A DNA stretch of 64,000 nucleotides from Acidiphilium acidophilum (GTDB taxonomy: Bacteria; Pseudomonadota; Alphaproteobacteria; Acetobacterales; Acetobacteraceae), in contig NZ_JAWXYB010000018.1 in assembly GCF_033842475.1 (NCBI RefSeq), forward strand, positions 2,463,501 to 2,527,500, given 5' to 3'. Made by a program: the position numbers and the translations under genes. Of this stretch, positions 2,955 to 16,132 are shown one piece after another. Every line of letters begins with the position of its first letter. Positions within the stretch are counted from its first letter, which is position 1. The notes beneath the pieces are model-generated. The model was not told the DNA's origin and made no database searches. It saw only the letters and a program-made list of their open reading frames with translations.

Positions 2955-4136
2955 ATGGACGCCAAAAAGGATACGATTATCGAGGCACTTTTGGAACATC
3001 TGATCGAAAACGGCGCAGGCGATATCGCCACGGTATTTGCCAGGACCTTCGAACTCGCCATGCAGATCGAGCGCGAACGCTTCCTCCACGCCAGTCACTA
3101 CGAGCGCAACCCCGATCGTCAGGGTTACGCCAATGGCTACAAGCCCAAGCGGATCGATACCCCGGCCGGGTCGATCACCGTCGATGTCCCCAAAACCGCC
3201 GGTCACGTGGGCGAACCCTTCTACCCACAGTCCCTCGAACGCGGCCGACGCTCGGTCCGCGCCGTCATGGTCGCCGTCGCCGAAATGTACATCAAAGGCG
3301 TCTCCACCCGCGACGTCGAGGCCGTCATGCGCGAATTCGGCATCGAAAGCCTCTCCTCCGCTCAGGTCAGCCGCGCCAGCAAGCTGCTCGATGACGAACT
3401 CGCCGCCTGGCGCACCCGACCCCTCGCCGAGATCCGCTACCTCATCCTCGACGCCAGATATGAAAAAATGCGCGATAATGGCGTCGTCCGCGATGCCGCC
3501 GTGCTCTCGGCCATCGGCATCGGACCCGATGAACGCCGCCGTGTCCTCGGCGTCTCGGTCGCCCTTTCCGAGGCCGAAGTCCATTGGCGTGCCTTCCTCG
3601 AAAGCCTCCATCAGCGTGGCCTGCGAGGCGTCGAATTCATCGTCTCCGATGACCATGCCGGATTGCACGCCGCACGCCGCGCCGTCTTCGGCGCCGCACA
3701 CTGGCAACGATGCCAGTTCCACCTCGCCCAAAACGCCATCCACCACGCCCCCAACCACGCCATCCGCAAACGCATCGGCGCAGAACTCCGGACCGTCTGG
3801 AACGCAAATTCCCTCGCCGCTGCCCAGATCGCTCTCACAACCCTCGTCAATGCCTATCGCGACACCGCACCAAAGCTCGCCGATTGGCTCGAACGAAATA
3901 TCCCCGAAGGCCTCACCGTCTTCACACTGCCAGAACCCCACCAGCGCCGGCTTCGCACTTCCAACCCCATGGAACGCGGCATCCAGCAGGAACTCAAACG
4001 CCGCACCACCAAAATCAGGGTCTTCCCCAACGAAGCCTCCCTCGAACGCCTCGTCAGCGCCGTCCTCGTCGAAATCGATGAAAAATGGGCCGCCGACACC
4101 AAGGGCTACATCAAGTGGGACTACCAGGATGCCTGA
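2955..4136 (+). CDS. IS256-family (mutator) transposase, copy 1
   Basis: 393 residues, full length for IS256 transposases. The likely DDE residues are Asp in LILDARYEK, Asp in IVSDDHAGL and Glu in SNPMERGIQQELKRRT. The conserved EMYIKGVSTRDVE block and a QCQFHLAQN-like C/H motif (RCQFHLAQN) are present. The start at 2955 is chosen over 2951 because it is in frame with the full domain. It has no stops and is probably active. It sits inside the GNAT gene in the same orientation. Confidence 0.93.
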   Translation: MDAKKDTIIEALLEHLIENGAGDIATVFARTFELAMQIERERFLHASHYERNPDRQGYANGYKPKRIDTPAGSITVDVPKTAGHVGEPFYPQSLERGRRSVRAVMVAVAEMYIKGVSTRDVEAVMREFGIESLSSAQVSRASKLLDDELAAWRTRPLAEIRYLILDARYEKMRDNGVVRDAAVLSAIGIGPDERRRVLGVSVALSEAEVHWRAFLESLHQRGLRGVEFIVSDDHAGLHAARRAVFGAAHWQRCQFHLAQNAIHHAPNHAIRKRIGAELRTVWNANSLAAAQIALTTLVNAYRDTAPKLADWLERNIPEGLTVFTLPEPHQRRLRTSNPMERGIQQELKRRTTKIRVFPNEASLERLVSAVLVEIDEKWAADTKGYIKWDYQDA

Positions 4137-4634
4137 CCCCCGCTCGCCCTATTTTCCAGACATCAGGTTGCTCAATCTGATGCGCCCTGCGGTGCGCCAC
4201 GGCACGATGGTGTTCGCGCCGTATACCAGCGAATCCGCTGCGACGGCGCACATGGACGCCGCCGCCACAACCTTCAATATCGTCGCGGTCAGCGACACCG
4301 ATGGCGCGGTGATCGGCCATATCGTGCTGTTTCGCGGCAAGGGGTTTGAGAGCCATAGCGGCTGGTTCGGCCTCGCCGTGCATGAAGACTGGTGGCGGCG
4401 CGGGGTTGGCTCCGCGCTGATGGCCGCGATGATCGACACCGCTCATAACTGGCTCGGCCTGACGCGGATCAGCCTTGAAGTGTTCACCGACAACGACCCC
4501 GCGATTGCGTTGTACCGGAAATTCGGATTCGAGATCGAGGGCACAATGCGCCGCCGGGTGTTCCGGATGGGACGATACGCCGATGGCTACATGATGGCCC
4601 GGCTGTTCGACCCGCCCAAATTCAGCGGGACACC

Positions 4635-5120
4635 ATGAGCACGGTATCCATTCGCGCGCGCGAAGAGTCCGACGCCGCTGCGATCGCCGCGCTGATGAAC
4701 CTGCCCGGCGTGCGGCACGGCACGTTGCGGGTGCCGTTCGTGTCGGTCGATTTCGCCCGAACCTGGGTCGGCCACCCCTGGGCCGCCGCGCTGGTCGCCG
4801 AACGTGACGCTCACGTGATCGGCACCACCGCGCTGACCCGCAGCAGCGGCCGGCAGGCCCATACCGGCTCGATCCTGCTGTTCGTCCACGACGATCATAC
4901 CAATGCCGGCGTCGGCCATGCCCTGATGACGGCAGTGCTCGACCTCGCGGATAACTGGCTCGGCCTCCACCGCGTCAGCCTCACGGTCAATGCCGATAAC
5001 GACCGCGCCATCCATCTTTACCGCAAGTTCGGCTTCGAGACCGAAGGCGTGCTGCGCGATGATGTGCTGCGCGACGGGGTTTTCATCGACAGCCTCACCA
5101 TGGCCCGCCTGCGCCTATAA
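4635..5120 (+). CDS. GNAT family N-acetyltransferase
   Basis: 161 residues, typical of small GNAT enzymes that transfer acetyl from acetyl-CoA to an amine. The CoA-binding loop is HDDHTNAGVGHALM (about residues 81-94), and the C-terminal YRKFGFETEGV motif is near residue 130. Its start overlaps the stop of the interrupted paralogue by four bases (4635-4638). Substrate is unknown. After the IS insertion it depends on transcription from or through the element. It ends tail to tail with the GH15 gene, overlapping it by six bases (5115-5120). Confidence 0.85.
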   Translation: MSTVSIRAREESDAAAIAALMNLPGVRHGTLRVPFVSVDFARTWVGHPWAAALVAERDAHVIGTTALTRSSGRQAHTGSILLFVHDDHTNAGVGHALMTAVLDLADNWLGLHRVSLTVNADNDRAIHLYRKFGFETEGVLRDDVLRDGVFIDSLTMARLRL

Positions 5121-6908
5121 CGGCGCGGGCTTGCCGTGTTCGGCGGCGTGCATCCGCAAGGCCGCATTCACCAGGGCGACATGGGTGAACGCCTGCGGAA
5201 AATTGCCGATCTGGCGCTTGTTTTTCGTGTCGTATTCCTCGGAGAACAGGCCGAGATCGTTGCGCAGCGCGATCAGCCGCCCGAACAATTCTTCCGCGTC
5301 GTCCTTGCGGCCCATCAATGTGTAGTTGTCGACCAGCCAGAAGCTGCAGGCGAGGAACACGCCCTCGGTGCCGCTGAGCCCGTCATTGCCGCCGGAGGTG
5401 TTGTAGCGGCGGACGAAGCCGTCCTGCAGCAGATCGCGTTCGATTGCCGCAACCGTGCCGATCATGCGCGGATCGTCCGGCGGCAGGAAGCCGACCATGG
5501 TGAGGAGCAGCAGGCTGGCATCGAGCAGGGTCGAGCCGTAGGCCTGCACGAAACTGTTCATCGAGGTATCGAACCCGTGGGCGCAGACCTGATCGTGGAT
5601 TTGCTGGCGAATCCCGCGCCAGCATTCGACCGGGCCTTCATAGCCGAATTCCTCGATCGAGCGGATTGCCCGGTCGAACGCGACCCAGGCCATGACCTTG
5701 GAGTGGACGAATTGCTGCCGCCCGCCGCGCACCTCCCAGATGCCTTCATCCGGTTCGGCCCAGATTGTTTCGAGATTGCCGAGCAGATTGCACCTGACCT
5801 GCCAGCTGTTCTCGTCGTGCTTCAGCCCGCCTTTATGGCCCTGATAGAGGGTGTCGAGCAGTTCGCCATAGACGTCGAGCTGGCGCTGTTCCGCCGCTGC
5901 GTTGCCGACGCGGACCGGGCGGGAGTTTTCGTAACCGGCGAGCCAGTCGACGGTCCATTCCGCGAGGCGGCGCTCGCCCGCGATACCATACATGATCTGG
6001 ATATCGTCGGGGTTGCCGGCCACGGCACGGTCGAGCCAGAGGCGCCATGCCTTGGCCTCCTCGCGATATCCGGCGGCGAGAAACGCCTGAAGGGTGAAGC
6101 TCGCATCGCGCAGCCAGCAATAGCGGTAATCCCAATTGCGTTCGCCGCCGAGTTCCTCCGGCAGCGAGGTGGTGGCCGCCGCGACGATGCCGCCGGTCTC
6201 CCAGTGGGTGAGCGCCTTCAGGGTGATCAGCGAGCGCTTGACGATCTCGACCCAGCGGCCCTCGACCGGGACGCGCCGCGCCCAGCTCTGCCATTTCTCG
6301 GTGGCGGTGGCGATGCTTGCCTTCACGTCGAATTCATGGGGAACCCGGCGGTGCGATTGCAGCCATTCGAGGCCGAAGGTGACGGTTTCGCCGGCAGCGA
6401 CCGAAAATTCGCCGGCGGTGTGGTGATCGCGCCCTTCGAGTTCCACCTCCGACCAGATCACGACCATGTCCGGTCCCGCGACTGCGGTGATGCCCTTGCC
6501 GTCCGGCAGGCGCTGCACCCAGGGGACGATTTTGCCGAAGCCGAACCGGAACACCAGCTCGGTTTTCATATCGACATTGCCGTCCAGCCCGGTGACCTGA
6601 CGGACCAGGCGGGTCGTGTCGTGCGGGTGCGGCACCATGCAGTCGGTCAGCCGGATCGTGCCGGTCGCGGTGGTCATTTCGGTTTCGAGAACCAGGGTAT
6701 CCTCGCGATAATACCGGTGGGTCTTGATGATTTCGCCTTCGGGGGCGATCAGCCAGCGGCCATTGTCGCTGGTGCCGAGCAGGGCGGCGAAACAGGGATC
6801 GGAATCGAAACGGGGCAGGCACAGGAAGTCGATCGAACCATCCTTGCCGACGAGTGCGGTGGTCTGGCGGTCGCCGATCAGGCCGTAATCTTCGATGCGT
6901 AGAGCCAT
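5115..6908 (-). CDS. Glycoside hydrolase family 15 protein (glucoamylase/trehalase-like)
   Basis: 597 residues, matching bacterial GH15 enzymes. It has an N-terminal beta-sandwich starting IEDYGLIGDRQTTALV and an (alpha/alpha)6 catalytic domain with NWDYRYCWLRDASFTL (about residues 258-273). The probable general-acid Glu is in DEGIWEVRGG and the general-base Glu in LFSEEYD. GH15 proteins release glucose from alpha-glucans, and some members act on trehalose; the sequence alone does not decide which. No signal peptide is seen, so the substrate is probably intracellular. A strong AAGGAGG precedes the start. It is the last gene of the pentose-phosphate operon, 37 bases after rpiA-gntK, and would feed glucose to the glucokinase encoded by the first gene. 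Confidence 0.88.
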   Translation of the reverse strand: MALRIEDYGLIGDRQTTALVGKDGSIDFLCLPRFDSDPCFAALLGTSDNGRWLIAPEGEIIKTHRYYREDTLVLETEMTTATGTIRLTDCMVPHPHDTTRLVRQVTGLDGNVDMKTELVFRFGFGKIVPWVQRLPDGKGITAVAGPDMVVIWSEVELEGRDHHTAGEFSVAAGETVTFGLEWLQSHRRVPHEFDVKASIATATEKWQSWARRVPVEGRWVEIVKRSLITLKALTHWETGGIVAAATTSLPEELGGERNWDYRYCWLRDASFTLQAFLAAGYREEAKAWRLWLDRAVAGNPDDIQIMYGIAGERRLAEWTVDWLAGYENSRPVRVGNAAAEQRQLDVYGELLDTLYQGHKGGLKHDENSWQVRCNLLGNLETIWAEPDEGIWEVRGGRQQFVHSKVMAWVAFDRAIRSIEEFGYEGPVECWRGIRQQIHDQVCAHGFDTSMNSFVQAYGSTLLDASLLLLTMVGFLPPDDPRMIGTVAAIERDLLQDGFVRRYNTSGGNDGLSGTEGVFLACSFWLVDNYTLMGRKDDAEELFGRLIALRNDLGLFSEEYDTKNKRQIGNFPQAFTHVALVNAALRMHAAEHGKPAPL

Positions 6909-6945
6909 GAGGGCCCTCCTTCATTGGAGTTTGTCCGGGGGATGG

Positions 6946-8208
6946 TCAGGTGTGCGCGGCGAGCCGGTCGATGACCGCTTCGACGATCGCGGTGGGTGTC
7001 ATCCCGGTATCGACGGTAATAACCGCTTCGTCACTGCCTGGGGGTTCAAGTAATGCGATCTGGCTATCAAGTAATCGCGAGGGCATGAAATGGCCGCGCC
7101 GTGCCGCGATCCGGGCTTCGAGCACTGCGCGGCTGCCCTGGAGATTGACCAGGACCAGTTCGGTGCAATCGCCGCGCACCAGATCGCGGTACTGGCGGGT
7201 GAGCAGGGAACTGACGATCACCCCGCCCGAGGAGGCCTGCCGCCAGGCGCGGATCTGGCTGGCGATCCGGTGCAGCCAGGGCATCCGGTCGTTATCGTCG
7301 AGCGGGTGGCCCGCGTGCATCTTGGCGCGGTTCGCCTCGCTGTGCAGATCGTCGCCATCGACGAACGGAATGTCGAGGCAGCCTGCCAGCATCGCCCCGA
7401 TCGTCGATTTGCCCGAGGCGGTCACGCCCATCACGGCGAGGAGCGGCTTGGGGAAAACCGGCGCGACACCCAGTGCCCGCAAGGTCGCGATCTCGCCCGC
7501 AACCCCGGCGCGGGCGAAGCAATCGCCCTCGAATGTGCGCACCGTACCATCCGCGAAGCCGACAAAGGCGGCCGCGCATCCTTCGAGGAACAGGCCGGTC
7601 TCGACGACCCCCGCCATGGTTTTCAGCGCCGCGCCGACCGCAGCGGCGTCACGCCCGGCGGGCAGACGGCAATCGGCAATGACATTGCCGTTATCGGTGA
7701 CAAATCGGGTACCATCCGCCGCCATTCGGAAGGCGGGTTCCAGACCGAGCGCGGTCAACCGCCCGAAGGTTCGTTCGGCCCCGAAATTCGCCAGTTCCAC
7801 AGGCAGTTTCACATGCGCGCCGAGGCGGCCGACCAGCTTGCCCTGATCGGCGATGACCACGAACCGATGGGCGGACTGGGCGACGACTTTTTCCCGCAGC
7901 AGCGCCCCGCCGAGCCCCTTGATCAGACGGAGGGAGCCGAATTCGATTTCATCGGCACCATCGACCGCGAGATCGAGCGGTTGCGCGAGGTCGATTACCG
8001 GGATGCCGAGTTCGCGCGCCCGTTGCCCGGTTGCGTGCGAGGTGGCAGCACAGCTGATCGACAAGCCTTCGGCGGCGATCCGCGCGGCGAGAGCCGTCAG
8101 GAAATGCGCGACGGTGGAGCCGGTGCCGAGCCCGACATGCATGCCGGAGTAGACCAGCTTCGCTGCCTCGGTGGCCGCATTGCGCTTCTGGGTGTCGGTG
8201 TCTGTCAC
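6946..8208 (-). CDS. rpiA-gntK: Fused ribose-5-phosphate isomerase A / gluconokinase
   Basis: One uninterrupted 420-residue frame. Residues 1 to about 230 are RpiA: phosphate loop GLGTGSTVAHFL, catalytic VDGADEIE and LIKGLGGALLREK. Residues about 256-420 are a GntK-type gluconokinase: P-loop GVTASGKST (261-269), then DGDDLHSEANRAKM and PLDDNDRMPWL. A 25-residue stretch (about 231-255) links them. GntK makes 6-phosphogluconate from gluconate and ATP, Gnd (same operon) turns that into ribulose-5-P, and RpiA makes ribose-5-P, so the fused activities sit one step apart. Both halves keep their catalytic motifs and no frameshift is needed. It starts 13 bases after pgl. The fusion is unusual; both genes normally stand alone. 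Confidence 0.9.
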   Translation of the reverse strand: MTDTDTQKRNAATEAAKLVYSGMHVGLGTGSTVAHFLTALAARIAAEGLSISCAATSHATGQRARELGIPVIDLAQPLDLAVDGADEIEFGSLRLIKGLGGALLREKVVAQSAHRFVVIADQGKLVGRLGAHVKLPVELANFGAERTFGRLTALGLEPAFRMAADGTRFVTDNGNVIADCRLPAGRDAAAVGAALKTMAGVVETGLFLEGCAAAFVGFADGTVRTFEGDCFARAGVAGEIATLRALGVAPVFPKPLLAVMGVTASGKSTIGAMLAGCLDIPFVDGDDLHSEANRAKMHAGHPLDDNDRMPWLHRIASQIRAWRQASSGGVIVSSLLTRQYRDLVRGDCTELVLVNLQGSRAVLEARIAARRGHFMPSRLLDSQIALLEPPGSDEAVITVDTGMTPTAIVEAVIDRLAAHT

Positions 8209-8221
8209 GGGATTACGCTAT

Positions 8222-8962
8222 CTACGATGCCCAGCGGCCTGCGGCGGCGCGGTCGGCGAGCCAGATCAGCCGCCCCTGCGGCTGAAGCCGTGCCGCGGGA
8301 ACCGTGGTGTCCCGCCCCGACAGGATCGCATCCAGCATCGCGCGCTTGCCTTCGCCGGAGACCACAAACACCACGACACGGGAACTTTCGAGCACCGGGT
8401 AGGTCAGGGTCACGCGTGACTCGGGCCGGCCTTTGGTGACCGGGAGAACCCAGCGCTGCCGTTCATCGAGCAGATCGGACTGGCCCGGCAGGAGCGATGC
8501 GGTGTGCCCGTCATCGCCCATGCCGAGGAAGCAGATATCGAAAAACGGCTGCTCCGGTCTGAGGGTTTGATGACCGTAAAGAGCTTTGAGCGTCTGCTCG
8601 TAGGCGGCGGCGGCGCGATCGACGGTTAGTCCCTCGAACGGCACGGCGTGCAGCCCGCCGACCGGATGGTCCAGACGATCGATCAGCGCGCCCCTGATCA
8701 TATGAAGGTTGCTGTCGGGGCTGTCATGGGCGACGAAGCGCTCATCGCCGAGCACGAGGTCCATGGCGTCCCAGCGGAGCGACGTGCGGTAAGGGGGCTC
8801 GGCAAGCCGCCGGTAGATCGATTTCGGGGTCGAGCCCCCGGCAAGTCCGGCGACGAACCGGCCCTGTGCCGCAGCGGCGGCATCGGCGAACAGCCGCGCT
8901 CCCGCTTCCGCGAATGCTTCGGCGGTCTCGACCACCATGAGTTCGCCACGAGCGGGTGTCAT
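8222..8962 (-). CDS. pgl: 6-phosphogluconolactonase
   Basis: 246 residues, the length of DevB/SOL-type lactonases, which hydrolyse 6-phosphogluconolactone to 6-phosphogluconate after the Zwf step. It shows VAGLAGGSTPKSIYRRL near the N-terminus, VLGDERFV (about residues 78-85), SNLHMIRGAL and the diagnostic FLGMGDDGHTASLLPG. Its start overlaps the upstream HAD gene stop by four bases (8959-8962), which makes coupled translation likely. Confidence 0.93.
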   Translation of the reverse strand: MTPARGELMVVETAEAFAEAGARLFADAAAAAQGRFVAGLAGGSTPKSIYRRLAEPPYRTSLRWDAMDLVLGDERFVAHDSPDSNLHMIRGALIDRLDHPVGGLHAVPFEGLTVDRAAAAYEQTLKALYGHQTLRPEQPFFDICFLGMGDDGHTASLLPGQSDLLDERQRWVLPVTKGRPESRVTLTYPVLESSRVVVFVVSGEGKRAMLDAILSGRDTTVPAARLQPQGRLIWLADRAAAGRWAS

Positions 8963-9780
8963 GATGTCGCTCCATCGAGGATGAATTTGCGAATCGCCTT
9001 GGCGAAGCCTTCGTCTTCGTTGCTGTCGGTGGTGAATTTGGCGCTCGATTTCACCTCGTCATCCGCGTTGCCCATCGCGATGGACATGCCGCTGCGCTTG
9101 AACATGGTCACGTCATTCGGCATGTCGCCGATGGTCGCGATACGGTCGCGCGGAATATCGAGCCGCTGCGAAAGTTCATCAACCACAGCACCCTTGTTGG
9201 CTTTGGCGTTGGTGATGTCGAGATAATAGGGTTGCGAACAGGCCGCCGTAACCCGATTGCCGAATTCCTTCGTCGCGGCCTGCAACGCTGCCTGCATCCT
9301 GGATTTATCGTCGGTGACGCCGACGATCTTGACCACCGAGTTCAGATCGTCGGCGGAGAATCGCGCCACCACCTCCGCCTCGAACTGCACGGTCTTTGCC
9401 TCGCGCGCGACGTGCGGGGCCGAAACGTCGTGGATCAGCCAGCGCTTTTTGGTATACACCCAGGCATCGAGCCCATGCTCGCCGAGCAGATCGAGCGCGG
9501 TCTGGATGACGTCCCCGGGCAGGTCGTAGGAATTGAGAACGGTTTCCATGTCGGGCGCCATCAGCACGCCGCCGTTGAACCCGGCGATCGGCGTGTCAAT
9601 GGCGAGAGGCCGGCTGACCATCGCCATGCCGCGCGGTGGGCGACCGCTGGTGATCGCGAATTTGATCCCCGCCGCATGGAGGTCATGAACCGCGCGCTTC
9701 GCTGCCTCGGTGAGCACCTTCTCGCCTGTCACGAGCGTCCCATCGACATCGGCGAGAACCAGATCGATCGCACGGCTCAT
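8959..9780 (-). CDS. Cof-type HAD hydrolase (sugar phosphatase candidate)
   Basis: 273 residues of a Cof/type IIB HAD phosphatase. Motif I is DVDGTLVTGEK (nucleophile Asp), motif II is AITSGRPPRGM, a lysine is in the C2 cap region, and motif IV is GDMPNDVTMFKRSG with SIAMGNADDEVK. These enzymes dephosphorylate sugar phosphates or FMN-type substrates in the cytoplasm. Its four-base overlaps with both zwf (9777-9780) and pgl (8959-8962) put it firmly in the operon. It may therefore clear or balance a pentose-phosphate intermediate; that role is inference. Confidence 0.85.
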   Translation of the reverse strand: MSRAIDLVLADVDGTLVTGEKVLTEAAKRAVHDLHAAGIKFAITSGRPPRGMAMVSRPLAIDTPIAGFNGGVLMAPDMETVLNSYDLPGDVIQTALDLLGEHGLDAWVYTKKRWLIHDVSAPHVAREAKTVQFEAEVVARFSADDLNSVVKIVGVTDDKSRMQAALQAATKEFGNRVTAACSQPYYLDITNAKANKGAVVDELSQRLDIPRDRIATIGDMPNDVTMFKRSGMSIAMGNADDEVKSSAKFTTDSNEDEGFAKAIRKFILDGATS

Positions 9781-11387
9781 GCGCGCGGGTCCTTGGCCGG
9801 CAGGGCGACCGGACGCCAGTGCCGGGTGGGGTCGTCGTCGGAGAGCAGGGCATCGGACGCGTCCGGCCCCGGGCCGCCGCTTTCGTAATTGGGGAAATCA
9901 GCAGGCGTGGTGCTGCCCCAATGGTCGAGCACGCCTTGCACCACGCGCCAGGTTTCCTCGACCATGTCGGCGCGCTGAAACAGGGTCTGATCGCCGATCA
10001 TGCAGTCGTAGAGCAGGGTTTCGTATCCGACGTTCGGTTCCGGGGTGAACCAGTCGCGGTAGCGGAACTCCATATTGGCCGGCGCGAGCCGCATGGTCTG
10101 GCCGGGGTGCTTGACTTCGAATTGCAGGGCGATGCCTTCATCCGGCTGAATCCGCAGCACCAGCCAGTTGGGCGGCAGGGTATCGAGCGAGGTATCCTGG
10201 AAGGCGGCGAGCGGCGCTTTCTTGAACTGGATGGCGATCTCGGTCATCCGGCAGGACATGTGCTTGCCGGTGCGGATGTAGAACGGCACGCCGGCCCAGC
10301 GCCAGTTATTGATCTTAAGCCGCATGCCGACATAGGTTTCGGTCGCTGAGTCTTTCGCGACGTCGGGCTCCTCGCGATAGGCGATCACCGGCTTGCCGGC
10401 GACCGTGCCTTTGCCATACTGGCCACGAACAGCATCGTTGTCGGCGAGGGTTTCGATCGCGGCGAACAACTCGTATTTCTTGTCGCGGATCGCCTCGGGC
10501 TTGAAGCCGACCGGCGGCTCCATCGTGACCATGGCGAGAAGCTGGAACACGTGGTTGGGCACCATGTCGCGCAGCGCGCCGGTCTGTTCATAGAATTTGC
10601 CGCGGCCTTCGACGCCCACAGTCTCCGCCACCGTGATCTGGACGTGATCGATCCGGTCGCGGTTCCAGATCGGTTCGAACATGCCGTTGCCGAAGCGCAG
10701 CGCCATGATGTTCTGGACGGTCTCCTTGCCGAGAAAATGATCGATCCGGTAGACCTGTTTCTCGTTGAGCACGCTCAGCACCTGGGCATTGAGCGCCTTG
10801 GCCGAATCGAGGCTGTGGCCGAAGGGTTTCTCGATCACCACCCGCCGCCAGGGCGCGTTTTCGTCATCCTTGTGCTCGACCAGACCGGCCGCCCCGAGAT
10901 GCTCGACGATGGTGCCGAAAAACCGGTCCGCCACGGCAAGGTAGAACAATCGGTTGCCGCCGGTGCCGTGCTGGGATTCCAGACTTTCAAGCTCGGTCTT
11001 CAGCGCGGTGTAGAAGCCCGCATCGGTGAAGTCGCCCTGAACGTAGGACATGTGCGCTGCGAGCTTCGACCAGTTCGCTTCGTCGATGGCCTTGATCTGG
11101 TCTTCCGCGTTCGGATCGCCGATGAAGCTTTCGAGGGTCTTGTGCAGCGAGGACTTCCAGTCATCCGTGCTGCGCTTGGCGATATCGGCGCCGATTAGCA
11201 CGAATTTTTCCGGTGTCAGGCCGGTATTGGCAAGATTGTACAGCGCCGGCATCAGCAACCGCTTGGTCAGGTCACCCCCTGCCCCGAAAATGACGATGGC
11301 GCACGGGCCGGGAGGCTTGGCCGATGCCGGTTTCGCCGCAGTCGCGGGTTCGCCATGCGGATGAGGGATGAGATCTGCCATGATCAA
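9777..11387 (-). CDS. zwf: Glucose-6-phosphate dehydrogenase
   Basis: 536 residues, slightly longer than the usual 480-510 because of a proline/alanine-rich N-terminal tail of about 25 residues. It shows the nucleotide-binding [15 protein letters not shown], the catalytic signature [14 protein letters not shown] and a C-terminal sugar-phosphate domain. It oxidises glucose-6-P to 6-phosphogluconolactone, the first step of the oxidative pentose phosphate pathway. The start overlaps the gnd stop by four bases (11384-11387). A second ATG two codons later is an alternative start. Confidence 0.94.
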
Positions 11388-12382
11388 TCGCCTTTCTTGA
11401 CCGGAGTATGACCCTGTTCGAGATGGCCGCCGAAACCCTGGCGCATCGCGGAGAGCATCTTTTCGCCGAATGTATGGTCCTGGCGCGAGCGGAAGCGGGC
11501 GAACAGCGAGGCGGTGAGCACTTCCGCCGGCACTGCTTCCTCGATCGCCGCCTCGATGGTCCAGCGGCCCTCGCCGGAATCCTCGACGAAGCCGGTGAAA
11601 TCGGCGAGTTTCTCATCCTTGGCCAGAGCGGATGCCGTCAGATCGAGCAGCCAGGACGAAATCACGCTGCCGCGCCGCCAGACTTCGGAAATATCGGCAA
11701 GGTTGAGATCATAGCGCTGCGATTCCGGCAGATCGGCCGACGCCTTGTTGCGCAGGATGTCGAAGCCTTCCGCATAGGCCTGCATCAAACCGTATTCGAT
11801 CCCGTTGTGGACCATCTTGACGAAATGCCCGGCACCGACCGGCCCGGCGTGGATATAGCCGTGTTCGGCGCGCTGATCGTGACCGTCACGATGGGGTGTG
11901 CGGTCGATCGCGCCAATACCGGGGGCCAGAGTCTTGAAGATGGGATCGAGATGTTTGACGATATCGGCCTCGCCGCCGATCATCATGCAATAGCCCCGGT
12001 CGATGCCCCAGATTCCGCCCGAGGTTCCGACATCGACATAGTGCAGCCCCCGCCCCTTCAGGGTTTCGGCGCGGCGGATATCGTCCTTGTAGAAGCTGTT
12101 GCCACCGTCGATGATGATGTCGCCGCTCTCCATTATCGCGGCCAGCGCCTCGATGGTGTCCTCGGTGATCTTGCCGGATGGCAGCATGACCCACACCACG
12201 CGCGGCGTCGGCAATGCCTTGATCATGCCCGGCACGTCGGCAGCGCCGGTTGCGCCATCCTTTTCAAGTCCCTTGACGGCATCGGCCGATTTGTCGAACA
12301 CCACGCACTCATGATGATCGCGCATCAAGCGGCGCGCGATATTCGCACCCATCCGGCCAAGGCCGATAATTCCGATTTTCAT
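11384..12382 (-). CDS. gnd: 6-phosphogluconate dehydrogenase, decarboxylating (short form)
   Basis: 332 residues with an N-terminal Rossmann motif [15 protein letters not shown], substrate motif [10 protein letters not shown] and catalytic [20 protein letters not shown]. This is the short GndA-like class rather than the 470-residue form; several short enzymes use NAD+, but the cofactor cannot be settled from sequence. It converts 6-phosphogluconate to ribulose-5-P and CO2. It lies 21 bases after tal-pgi and overlaps zwf by four bases. Confidence 0.93.
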
Positions 12383-12403: not shown

Positions 12404-15235
12404 TCAGTGATACGCGTGGATGATCGCTTTGTGCAGCGCTTCGAGGCCGTGCTGGACATTCTGGAAATGCACCCGGATGACGCGCCGGTCCCGCTCGACC
12501 AGCACGCTCAGATCGCCCTCGGCCTGCGCTGCCTTGACCTGGCTGAAACTGTAGGCGTGGCCTGGGACCGGAATGTCCTTCGCATCATCGGTCGTGATCT
12601 GGAGAAACACGCCGCTGTTGGGTCCGCCCTTGTAGGCCTGACCGGTCGAGTGCAGGAACCGGGGCCCGAAGCCGAGGCAGGTCGCCACCTTGCGGGTATT
12701 GCGCAGATGGGTGCGGATCTGCTCCAGCGCCGCCATATGCGATCCGTTGCGCTCGATATAGGCGAGGATCGCAATATAATCGCCTGCGTCCGCCCGGTTG
12801 AAATGCTGCTTGAGGTATGCGGCCAGCGTGGTGTGGGTTCCGAGCGCCGCTGCGTTTTTCGGATCGGCGAATATCGCCACGCCGTGCTCGTGGAACAAAG
12901 GTTCGTCATGGGGTGCCGAGCCGCCCTTTTCGTAGGCGTCGGTCAGCGCGCGGGTCTTGATTTTGCTGGCTTCGACATCGGGCTGGTCGAACGGATTGAT
13001 CCCGATGATCGCACCGGCAATCGCGGTCGCCATCTCCCAGCGGAAGAATTCCTGACCGATCTGCGCGACATCGTTCACCGTGATCCGCACCACCGGATGC
13101 CCCGCCTTTGCAAGCGCCGCCACATGTGCTGCCTGCTTCGCCTGCTCGTCGCCTTTCAGACAGAGATAGGCGAACACCCGGTCATGGCCATAAACGGCGG
13201 CATCGCCCAGCGGCTCGGCATCGATCGGCACCAGCCCGTGACCCTGCTTGCCGGTGGATTCCGCGATCAACTGTTCCAGCCATGCGCCGAGATCCGCGAT
13301 TTTGGGCGAGGCGATGATCGTCACCTTGTCGCGCTTGAACTCTTTCGCCGCGACGCCGAGCAACAGGCCGAGCTGCGCGCCCGGGTTCTGATCGACCGGC
13401 ACGCTCGCCGAGCAGGATTTGACCATGTGCGAGGTCAGAGCGAGGAAGTTTGCAACATCGATCCCCATCGCCGCCGCCGGCACCAGGCCGAATTTCGAGA
13501 GCACCGAGTAGCGGCCGCCGATCGATTTCACCCCGTGGAACAGATGCGCGAAATGATCGTGCTTCGCCACATGCTCCATCGCCGATCCCGGGTCGGTCAC
13601 GGCGGTGAAGTGCCTGGCCCAATCGCCCTGCCCCACCGTCTCGATCATCCGCGCCTTGAAATAGGCGAGGAAAATATTGGGCTCCAGCGTCGAGCCCGAT
13701 TTCGATGAGACGATGAACATCGTCGTCTTCAGATCGAGCTTCGATTCCAGCGTGGCGATCTGGGCCGGGTCGGTCGAATCGAGCATATGAAATTCGGGCC
13801 AGCCGTCACGATGGCCGAAGCTCCGGGCCAGCACTTCCGGCCCGAGGCTGGAGCCGCCCATGCCGAGCAGAGCGACATGCTTGAATCCGCCCTCGCGGAT
13901 CGCCTTGGCGAACCGCTCCAGCGTCGCGACATGGGTGTGCTCCTCGCCGACGATGGTGAGCCAGCCGAGCCATTTATCCTCGTCCGTGCCGGTCCAGACC
14001 GATTTGTCTCCGGCCCAGAGCTTGCGGATGGTGCCCTCCGCGAGCCAGCGTTTGGCAGTTTTTTCGATAGCGGCGTGCAGCGCCGCATCAGCCTCGATTT
14101 CGGCCCCGTTGAGATCGATCAGCGCCGTCCGCTTTTTCGCCACAGCGCCCAGCAACTGGTCGAACGCGTTGGCGAACTGGCGCACCCCGTCGGCAACCAG
14201 ATCGATTGTGACTTTTTCAAGAGAAATGCCGTGTGTTTCAAGTGATTTCAAAATATCGATGCCACCGGCCAGATCCTGCTCCACCGCATCCGGCGTCGCC
14301 TTGCCATGATCGCGGAACGCATCCATCGTCGCCGGCGGCATGGTGTTGACGGTATCGCGCCCGATCAGCGTTTCGACATACAGAGTGTCCGGATACGCCG
14401 GGTTCTTCACGCTGGTGGAGGCCCAGAGCAGCCGCTGGGTATGCGCTCCCTTGGCTTCCAGCGCCTGCCACTTCGCACCGGAAAACCATTTTTTGTAAGC
14501 GGCATAAGCCACTTTCGCATTGGCGATCGCGGCTTTGCCGAGCAAGGGCTTCAGCGCCGCCGCATCGCCGCCGGCGTCGATCTTGTCCTGCAACTGCTTG
14601 TCGATGACATTGTCGATCCGGCTGACGAAAAAGCTCGCGACGCTGCCGATTTTCGAAATATCCCCGCCTTTGGAGGCGAAATGTTCGAGCCCCTCGATAT
14701 AGGCGCGGGCAACCTGCTCATAGACCGGAACGGCGAACAGCAAGGTCACGTTGATCGAGATCCCCTCGCCGATCAGCGTGCGGATCGCGGGAATCCCGGC
14801 ATTTGTCGCCGGTACCTTGACCATCAGGTTCGGCTTGCCCACGGCCTTGTGCAGGCGGCGTGCCTCGTTCACCGTGGCCTCGGTATCGAGCGCGAGATAG
14901 GGCGATACTTCGAGACTGATGTAACCGTCACGCCCTTTGGTTTCATGATAGACTGGCAGCAGGACATCCGCCGCCGCCTTGATGTCGCCGATCGCGAGAT
15001 GCTCGTAGATCGCCATCGGTTCATGATCGCCGCTATGGACGTAGCGCTCGAACTCCTTGGTATATTCCGGCGCGTGGGCGATCGCCTTCTCGAAGATCGA
15101 CGGGTTGGACGTGACCCCCTTCAGCCCATCCCGCTTGATCATCATCGCGAGATCGCCCCCCTCGATGAGTTCGCGCTGGACGAAATCGAGCCAGGGGGCC
15201 TGGCCGGTTTCGGCAAGTTGCTTGAGAGGGTTCAT
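12404..15235 (-). CDS. tal-pgi: Bifunctional transaldolase / glucose-6-phosphate isomerase
   Basis: 943 residues in one frame. The N-terminal part (about 1-370) is transaldolase, opening NPLKQLAETGQAPWLDFV and carrying the Schiff-base lysine in PNLMVKVPATNAG. The C-terminal part (about 400-943) is phosphoglucose isomerase with LLGMGGSSLGPEVLARSFG and the sugar-phosphate loop SSKSGSTLEPN. Tal-Pgi fusions are known in acetic acid bacteria and relatives, so this is a lineage marker rather than a novelty. The enzyme returns non-oxidative pentose-phosphate carbon to fructose-6-P and glucose-6-P. An AGGAG lies at good spacing before the ATG. Confidence 0.95.
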   Translation of the reverse strand: MNPLKQLAETGQAPWLDFVQRELIEGGDLAMMIKRDGLKGVTSNPSIFEKAIAHAPEYTKEFERYVHSGDHEPMAIYEHLAIGDIKAAADVLLPVYHETKGRDGYISLEVSPYLALDTEATVNEARRLHKAVGKPNLMVKVPATNAGIPAIRTLIGEGISINVTLLFAVPVYEQVARAYIEGLEHFASKGGDISKIGSVASFFVSRIDNVIDKQLQDKIDAGGDAAALKPLLGKAAIANAKVAYAAYKKWFSGAKWQALEAKGAHTQRLLWASTSVKNPAYPDTLYVETLIGRDTVNTMPPATMDAFRDHGKATPDAVEQDLAGGIDILKSLETHGISLEKVTIDLVADGVRQFANAFDQLLGAVAKKRTALIDLNGAEIEADAALHAAIEKTAKRWLAEGTIRKLWAGDKSVWTGTDEDKWLGWLTIVGEEHTHVATLERFAKAIREGGFKHVALLGMGGSSLGPEVLARSFGHRDGWPEFHMLDSTDPAQIATLESKLDLKTTMFIVSSKSGSTLEPNIFLAYFKARMIETVGQGDWARHFTAVTDPGSAMEHVAKHDHFAHLFHGVKSIGGRYSVLSKFGLVPAAAMGIDVANFLALTSHMVKSCSASVPVDQNPGAQLGLLLGVAAKEFKRDKVTIIASPKIADLGAWLEQLIAESTGKQGHGLVPIDAEPLGDAAVYGHDRVFAYLCLKGDEQAKQAAHVAALAKAGHPVVRITVNDVAQIGQEFFRWEMATAIAGAIIGINPFDQPDVEASKIKTRALTDAYEKGGSAPHDEPLFHEHGVAIFADPKNAAALGTHTTLAAYLKQHFNRADAGDYIAILAYIERNGSHMAALEQIRTHLRNTRKVATCLGFGPRFLHSTGQAYKGGPNSGVFLQITTDDAKDIPVPGHAYSFSQVKAAQAEGDLSVLVERDRRVIRVHFQNVQHGLEALHKAIIHAYH

Positions 15236-15373: not shown

Positions 15374-16132
15374 TCATGCGCGCCGGGGGGATACCCCGTC
15401 CCACAGCCGCACCCCGCCGGTGATGCCGGTTTCGTTCGAAACCAGATGCACATCCGCCGGCAACGCGAAGGTGATGGCGGTGACGTTGCCGCCGCCGATA
15501 TAGAGCAGGTCGAAATTCACCAGCACCCGCAACGCATCGATCGTGCGCAGCACGTGCTTGTTCCATTTTCTGGCCCCGTCGCGGTTCAGGGCCTCGTGAC
15601 CGACATACTGATCGTAGGTGTGTTTCCTGTGCGCGTTGTGCTGGCCGAGTTCGAGATGGGGTGCCGGCCTGCCATCGGTGAACAGGGCGAATCCCATCCC
15701 GGTACCCAGCGTGATCGTGCACTCCAGACCCCGTCCGGCGATCGCCCCCAGCCCCTGCACCGTCGCGTCGTTCGCGAGCCGGACCGGCCGCGCGAGGCGG
15801 GCCGCGAGCCGGTCGGCCAGCTTGTAGCCATGCCATTGATCGTTGCCGAGATTGGGCGCGGTCAGCACCGTCACACCACGCGTCGCTCCGGGAAACCCGA
15901 CCGAGACCCGGTCGAAACCGCCCAAGGGCGCAATCAGGGCGCTGATCGTATCGACGATGAGGTCCGGCGGTTTGCCGAGCGGGGTTACCACCCGCTCGTA
16001 ATTGGTCAGAAGCGCACCATCCGGCGCCACCAGCGCCGCCTTGATATGGCTGCCGCCGATATCGATGCCCAACGTGACCGGGTCCGGCGTCACTTCGCCG
16101 ACCGGCCCTGAAGTCTGGAGCGGATGGTCCAT
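15374..16132 (-). CDS. ROK-family sugar kinase, polyphosphate-glucokinase-like
   Basis: 252 residues, the size of PPGK-type glucokinases. The phosphate-1 motif is GIDIGGSHIKAALV (about residues 21-34). NDATVQGLGAIAGRG carries the catalytic Asp, followed by TLGTGMGFALF. The LELGQHN segment replaces the zinc-binding ROK cysteine cluster, as in polyphosphate/ATP glucokinases. It would phosphorylate glucose at the head of this operon, with polyphosphate or ATP as donor. A 138-base gap separates it from tal-pgi, so an extra promoter there is possible. It is divergent from lepA across 162 bases. Confidence 0.8.
   Translation of the reverse strand: MDHPLQTSGPVGEVTPDPVTLGIDIGGSHIKAALVAPDGALLTNYERVVTPLGKPPDLIVDTISALIAPLGGFDRVSVGFPGATRGVTVLTAPNLGNDQWHGYKLADRLAARLARPVRLANDATVQGLGAIAGRGLECTITLGTGMGFALFTDGRPAPHLELGQHNAHRKHTYDQYVGHEALNRDGARKWNKHVLRTIDALRVLVNFDLLYIGGGNVTAITFALPADVHLVSNETGITGGVRLWDGVSPRRA

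Follow-up and report, generated by a model that had tools for sequence, protein, structure and literature searches.

The window analyzed here is a 64,000-nucleotide stretch of the Acidiphilium acidophilum genome (contig NZ_JAWXYB010000018.1, positions 2,463,501 to 2,527,500). A run of genes on its minus strand encodes enzymes of the pentose phosphate pathway, and within it a single frame joins ribose-5-phosphate isomerase (RpiA) to gluconokinase (GntK). In order of transcription, the features are as follows:

15374-16132, minus strand: ROK-family sugar kinase candidate at the cluster head (PF00480 over cut-off)
12404-15235, minus strand: tal-pgi, bifunctional transaldolase/phosphoglucose isomerase (NF007080, 1466 bits, cut-off 712)
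11384-12382, minus strand: gnd, 6-phosphogluconate dehydrogenase, 332 aa (NF007161 and TIGR00872 over cut-off)
9777-11387, minus strand: zwf, glucose-6-phosphate dehydrogenase (TIGR00871 over cut-off)
8959-9780, minus strand: Cof-type HAD hydrolase (TIGR00099 over cut-off)
8222-8962, minus strand: pgl, 6-phosphogluconolactonase (TIGR01198 over cut-off)
6946-8208, minus strand: rpiA-gntK fusion gene, 420 aa, GTG start
7534-8208, minus strand: RpiA domain, residues 1-225 (TIGR00021 and PF06026 over cut-off)
7447-7533, minus strand: linker, residues 226-254 (29 residues, predicted helices at 230-234 and 237-245)
6949-7446, minus strand: GntK domain, residues 255-420 (TIGR01313 over cut-off; Foldseek matches to the gluconate kinases 1knq, 3t61, and 4eun)
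5115-6908, minus strand: glycoside hydrolase family 15 (GH15)/trehalase-like protein (PF00723 over cut-off)

The 420-codon frame runs on the minus strand from a GTG at 8208 to a stop at 6946-6948; frame 1 of the plus strand over 6946-8208 contains stops. The original prediction had joined RpiA and GntK in this frame, leaving the strand unstated, and the joining is confirmed by scores above both curated cut-offs: TIGR00021 at residues 7-222 (1.6e-67, 227 bits, cut-off 126; model positions 1-217 of 218) and TIGR01313 at residues 258-414 (1.2e-46, 158 bits, cut-off 114; model positions 2-160 of 164). VDGADEIE lies at residues 82-89 and GVTASGKST at 261-269; the P-loop pattern GxxxxGK[ST] is present as GVTASGKS (261-268), and the lid pattern RxGHFMP as RRGHFMP. 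In Foldseek comparisons over whole domains, the RpiA structures 1uj4, 3l7o, and 4gmk are 39-43% identical, with the fusion adding a C-terminal kinase, and the GntK/IdnK structures 1knq, 3t61, and 4eun are 36-40% identical, the window GntK differing in being fused and in reading SSLLTR for CSALK(R). The fusion holds the only PF06026 match and the only TIGR01313 match over cut-off in the window genome—that is, its sole RpiA and sole GntK of those families. One RpiB match (PF02502) is also present, so the fusion is not the only possible ribose-5-phosphate isomerase of this genome. Among the Pfam and NCBIfam matches of the protein (8 NCBIfam families), none is a family model of the fusion.

The spacing of the genes suggests a single operon and, with it, co-transcription: gnd/zwf, zwf/HAD, and HAD/pgl each overlap by 4 bases, 13 bases separate pgl from the fusion, and the GH15 gene follows 37 bp downstream. 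The middle enzyme, Gnd, had been placed in the same operon; its gene does lie in the cluster on the same strand (11384-12382), with zwf, the HAD hydrolase gene, and pgl between it and the fusion. The two models that gnd matches, NF007161 and TIGR00872, name different cofactors. Among the 42 loci mapped, the cluster order of the window recurs in other Acidiphilium loci of sufficient length, and in other genera the cluster is kept with variations: zwf absent from it, pgi missing, or the cluster split or divergent. Around the rpiA/gntK pair, a tal/pgi-gnd-zwf-pgl-rpiA-gntK cluster is often found in the mapped loci. A ROK gene occupies the corresponding place in five other loci (L140, L148, L149, L055, and L056). 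The best, though weak, match of the window's short ROK protein is to polyphosphate-glucose phosphotransferase (82 bits against a cut-off of 250), and the protein may be a glucokinase feeding zwf. Farther along lie an IS256-family transposase gene (2955-4136, NF033543 over cut-off) and then two open reading frames (ending at 4638; 4635-5120) that, by eye, resemble tandem GNAT acetyltransferases.

How widespread is the fusion? In the genus search, both domains lie in one stop-free frame in 8 of 13 Acidiphilium genomes (the window genome, G249, G256, G153, G096, G254, G196, and G253), which rules out a fusion confined to the window genome, and in each of the eight the fusion carries the only TIGR01313 match over cut-off. 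Three genomes have rpiA alone (G250, G252, and G255) and two have no match (G232 and G251); no GntK over cut-off occurs in any of these five, meaning that some lineages do without the kinase. In the RpiA tree, the rpiA-only genomes group together next to the fused clade. No GntK or linker remnant was seen by eye behind their rpiA (3/3), so primary absence of gntK looks the same as later loss. Three loci (L141, L142, and L143) from Acidiphilium genomes of 2.1-2.8 Mb have pgl-rpiA-GH15 placed alike, with gntK absent there and no GntK over cut-off elsewhere in the genome. Twelve named loci match the protein, and fusions at 60-98% identity account for 4 of them—A. iwatense, two Acidiphilium metagenome-assembled genomes (MAGs), and one MAG labelled only Proteobacteria—and the other 8 match one domain.

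Across 397 genomes of the family, a search with the fusion profile recovered joined single-frame matches in at least 12, comprising the 8 Acidiphilium genomes and 4 of one other genus, g31 (G030, G1075, G1090, and G1059). Other searches gave two further single-frame cases: a 406-aa fused frame in G064 and, in G088, a 408-aa reading in the reversed order, GntK then RpiA, from a genus with no second genome for comparison. The breadth of the architecture in the family, which the original prediction had left as a question, is thus at least 14 of 397 genomes. Among the matches listed, g31 has 13 genomes, 4 of them fused; in two of the unfused (G1017 and G1125), the pair shares a frame that a stop interrupts between the domains. 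The 4 fused g31 genomes and G088 have no GntK over cut-off other than the fusion, and G064 has two. In addition to its fusion, G064 holds a separate, adjacent rpiA/gntK pair on a different contig (L034, L138). The gene cluster is not universal in the family: 51 of 249 genomes gave no match to the fusion protein. A class sample (385 genomes) and a phylum sample (398 genomes) contained, at E values up to 1e-55, no single-frame fusion other than that of the window; the two sets overlap and include a few family members, and a diverged or reversed fusion could have escaped the search. Among 485 matching plasmid records, none covers 80% of the fusion protein in one place.

How did the fusion arise? 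We compared 69 loci, one per genome except for two from G064: 14 are fused, 34 hold separate pairs, and 16 and 5 hold a lone rpiA and a lone gntK, respectively, the single-gene counts applying within the stretch fetched, which in some cases reaches only 1.5 kb past the match. Separate genes are the arrangement in 34 of the 48 loci holding both domains. In 32 of these 34, rpiA stands directly before gntK on one strand, with domain gaps of -13 to 165 bases, and 13 of the 32 pairs share a frame; the loci were picked from best matches, and joint matches favour same-frame pairs, so these counts are not a census. The other two pairs, both from outside the family, have the genes on opposite strands (L153 and L073, from G530 and G607, which share the class and differ in family; the genes are close in both). 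The adjacency of rpiA and gntK explains the fusion, and loss of the rpiA stop is the likely route.

The RpiA tree (64 rows), several of whose branches are long and some of whose placings are unsure, requires five changes of a "fused" label that was set before the tree was built, and all five are forced by starred branches. A single clade of all 14 fused rows is rejected (p-AU = 7.5e-123), as is a clade uniting the Acidiphilium and g31 fusions (p-AU = 1.6e-51); a clade of the four g31 fusions is not rejected (P = 0.12). The weaker GntK tree (53 rows) also counts five changes, of which two are forced. G1017, with its stop between the domains, is nested among the fused g31 genomes in the RpiA tree, and the g31 fusions may reflect one gain followed by a split (in G1017), or two gains. 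We read the RpiA tree as recording at least four origins in the family: Acidiphilium, g31, G064, and G088, the last two represented by single genomes.

Both domains are under purifying selection. Across five Acidiphilium pairs, dN/dS was 0.09, 0.17, 0.20, 0.11, and 0.33 for RpiA and 0.14, 0.10, 0.20, 0.17, and 0.39 for GntK, rough values in the last three pairs, where dS is about 0.8 or more and near saturation. In four g31 pairs, it was 0.08-0.12 for RpiA and 0.16-0.26 for GntK. The linker gave 0.32, 0.18, and 0.44 in the three computable Acidiphilium pairs and 0.46-0.61 in the three computable g31 pairs; being above the domain values, these indicate a linker that is less constrained and faster evolving than the domains. 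Its length is 29 residues with zero indels in all eight Acidiphilium fusions and is variable in g31. A single AlphaFold model built on 70 aligned rows had a mean pLDDT of 95.1 and a pTM of 0.89, the latter hinting at a fixed domain arrangement, and Foldseek matched the model to RpiA structures with a TM to target of up to 0.95 and to gluconate kinases of up to 0.89.

D83, D86, K97, and E106, the putative active-site Asp, Asp, Lys, and Glu of RpiA, are invariant in 6 fusions and kept in all eight Acidiphilium sequences; among conserved RpiA positions, 49 are kept in all eight, these putative catalytic residues among them, and 15 are changed in some or all. The Acidiphilium GntK modules all keep the P-loop, DGDDLH, DR.PWL, and R..HFMP. 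Among 45 other sequences, 50 GntK positions are conserved at 85% or more; all eight modules keep 40 of these, while 5 differ in some modules and 5 in all: Gly to Ala at 264, Trp to Ile/Val at 280, Glu to Asp at 284, Cys to Ser at 333, and Ala to Leu at 335. Among the other sequences, position 333 is Cys in 43/44 sequences, 335 Ala in 39/44, and 264 Gly in 43/44. The basic residue of the SALK/R motif, presumably near the acceptor site, is replaced by T337 in all eight; all 44 other sequences with a residue there have Lys (37) or Arg (7), the 45th having a gap, and the three solved GntK relatives have ALK there. The domains had been credited with intact motifs, and this holds for RpiA and the P-loop (VDGADEIE, GVTASGKST) but not for the kinase CSALK(R), which reads SSLLTR in 8/8 Acidiphilium fusions.

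What might the joined enzymes do? On the way from gluconate to ribose-5-phosphate, GntK catalyzes step 1 and RpiA step 3, without a directly shared intermediate, so a direct hand-over needs Gnd, a separate protein. The view of the fusion as two steps of one route is therefore right in that both enzymes lie on that route, but the steps are the first and the third. Either Gnd or Edd can use 6-phosphogluconate, and the window genome has an edd over cut-off (1002 bits vs. 708). It has no membrane-bound glucose dehydrogenase over cut-off (best 133 bits vs. 833), so that family lends no support to periplasmic gluconate formation of the kind described for Gluconobacter (PMC4588806). In Acidiphilium sp. 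C61, glycolysis is reported to be incomplete and the pentose phosphate pathway to be complete (PMC7142476).

The fusion, its conservation and selection, the adjacency in relatives, and the repeated origin, all computed above, make it probable that the gene encodes a bifunctional RpiA-GntK, formed by the in-frame joining of two neighboring genes of the pentose-phosphate cluster into two predicted independent modules made 1:1. The N-terminal module would interconvert ribulose-5-phosphate and ribose-5-phosphate, and the C-terminal module would phosphorylate gluconate (or a closely similar compound), yielding 6-phosphogluconate. From this the Gnd of the cluster would make ribulose-5-phosphate, with the Entner-Doudoroff route as the alternative fate of 6-phosphogluconate. 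The two sites would act independently, and the gain would be fixed 1:1 production and shared assembly, with no hand-over of a common intermediate. We infer both activities, the independence of the sites, and the oligomeric state; a functional interface between the domains would also fit the confident whole-chain model and the fixed-length linker. Most likely, a single chain here carries two enzymes of the ordinary kind, and no new pathway is involved.

The shared departures of the Acidiphilium kinase (A264, I/V280, D284, S333, L335, and T337) mean that its substrate may not be gluconate, and we consider it unlikely that this module has changed to another sugar acid or a polyol or has become mainly structural or regulatory. 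T337 in place of Lys/Arg, together with S333, L335, and A264 in all eight, speaks for such a change, as do the long stem of the Acidiphilium clade in the GntK tree (0.58) and a genome without a membrane glucose dehydrogenase over cut-off; the retained P-loop lysine, DGDDLH, DR.PWL, and lid arginines, a score above the GntK cut-off, and purifying selection speak against it. A broader account also seems to us unlikely: joining of RpiA and GntK would be repeatedly favored in this family because the two modules help to build an assembly of the oxidative pentose phosphate route with Gnd, and the Acidiphilium kinase, its conserved Lys/Arg lost, would have been retuned after the fusion, either toward another sugar acid or so that pentose phosphates control it through the linker.

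It is improbable that the fusion serves a metabolon in which GntK and RpiA flank Gnd and gluconate is channelled to ribose-5-phosphate. The presence of gnd in the cluster in many mapped loci and the fixed Acidiphilium linker length fit this idea, and at least four fusion origins on the RpiA tree, one of them reversed, would be expected if closeness were useful, but adjacency alone would also yield repeated fusion. The enzymes are moreover nonconsecutive, Gnd is unfused here, edd offers a competing fate and rpiB is present, the linker is faster evolving than the domains and of variable length in g31, and G1017 has its stop while nested among fused genomes. The original prediction that the fusion ties gluconate entry to ribose-5-phosphate formation finds nothing in its favor beyond adjacency and repeated fusion, against which stand edd, rpiB, and the lack of a membrane glucose dehydrogenase over cut-off. 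That the domains are also made separately through internal initiation, leaving the fusion only partial, is very improbable: in-frame ATG/GTG/TTG codons do occur near the P-loop in fusions, but none of the in-frame starts within the 32-codon stretch leading to the P-loop ATG carries a searched Shine-Dalgarno-like word in any of 12 fused sequences, and the linker length is fixed in Acidiphilium. An assembly or sequencing artefact, for which we found no point in favor, has a negligible chance of being the explanation and as a sequencing error is ruled out, since a single frame without the suspected stop between the domains occurs in 8 of 13 genus genomes with a constant linker length.

Is the architecture known? 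In line with the original prediction, whose author knew of no such enzyme, no RpiA-GntK fusion is named in titles or abstract openings among the matches listed from open-licence literature, and "gluconokinase," "rpiA," and "fusion" are absent from the main text of an Acidiphilium genus-wide genome paper (PMC7677001); the architecture may already be present, unremarked, in genome annotations. The nearest case is Gluconobacter oxydans 621H, for which a gene list in PMC6191907 gives rpi and gnk as two genes whose locus numbers follow one another (GOX1708 and GOX1709), with gnd (GOX1705), pgl (GOX1707), and tal/pgi (GOX1704) nearby, and zwf elsewhere (GOX0145). These are the same two enzymes as in the fusion, made as two proteins and, by that account, with zwf outside the cluster. 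Within the window, tal-pgi (NF007080, PRK09533; 12404-15235) is likewise a two-enzyme fusion of the same cluster but, unlike RpiA-GntK, has its own NCBIfam model. The RpiA-GntK architecture is real, conserved, apparently undescribed, and repeatedly arisen in one family, and it extends the range of domain combinations among fused central-carbon enzymes. The occurrence of the fusion in four parts of a single family, in either domain order and alongside unfused relatives, also amounts to a natural replicate experiment, in which comparison of fused and unfused forms could show coupling or a by-product of gene adjacency.

Other large stop-to-stop frames, fusion-like in appearance, were seen in four loci (L034, L035, L036, and L044). 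A 1558-aa frame in L147 was rejected as a further fusion, its stretch upstream of tal-pgi resembling, by eye, the reverse strand of a window gene that we take to be lepA-like. In the G088 locus (L139, G088:C1:194000-213000), gnd and zwf share one 888-aa stop-to-stop frame, Gnd then Zwf, at 4388-7051, and the reversed GntK-RpiA lies at 9276-10499, so that in this single genome three fused genes of the cluster (Gnd-Zwf, tal-pgi, and GntK-RpiA) together encode six sugar-phosphate enzymes.
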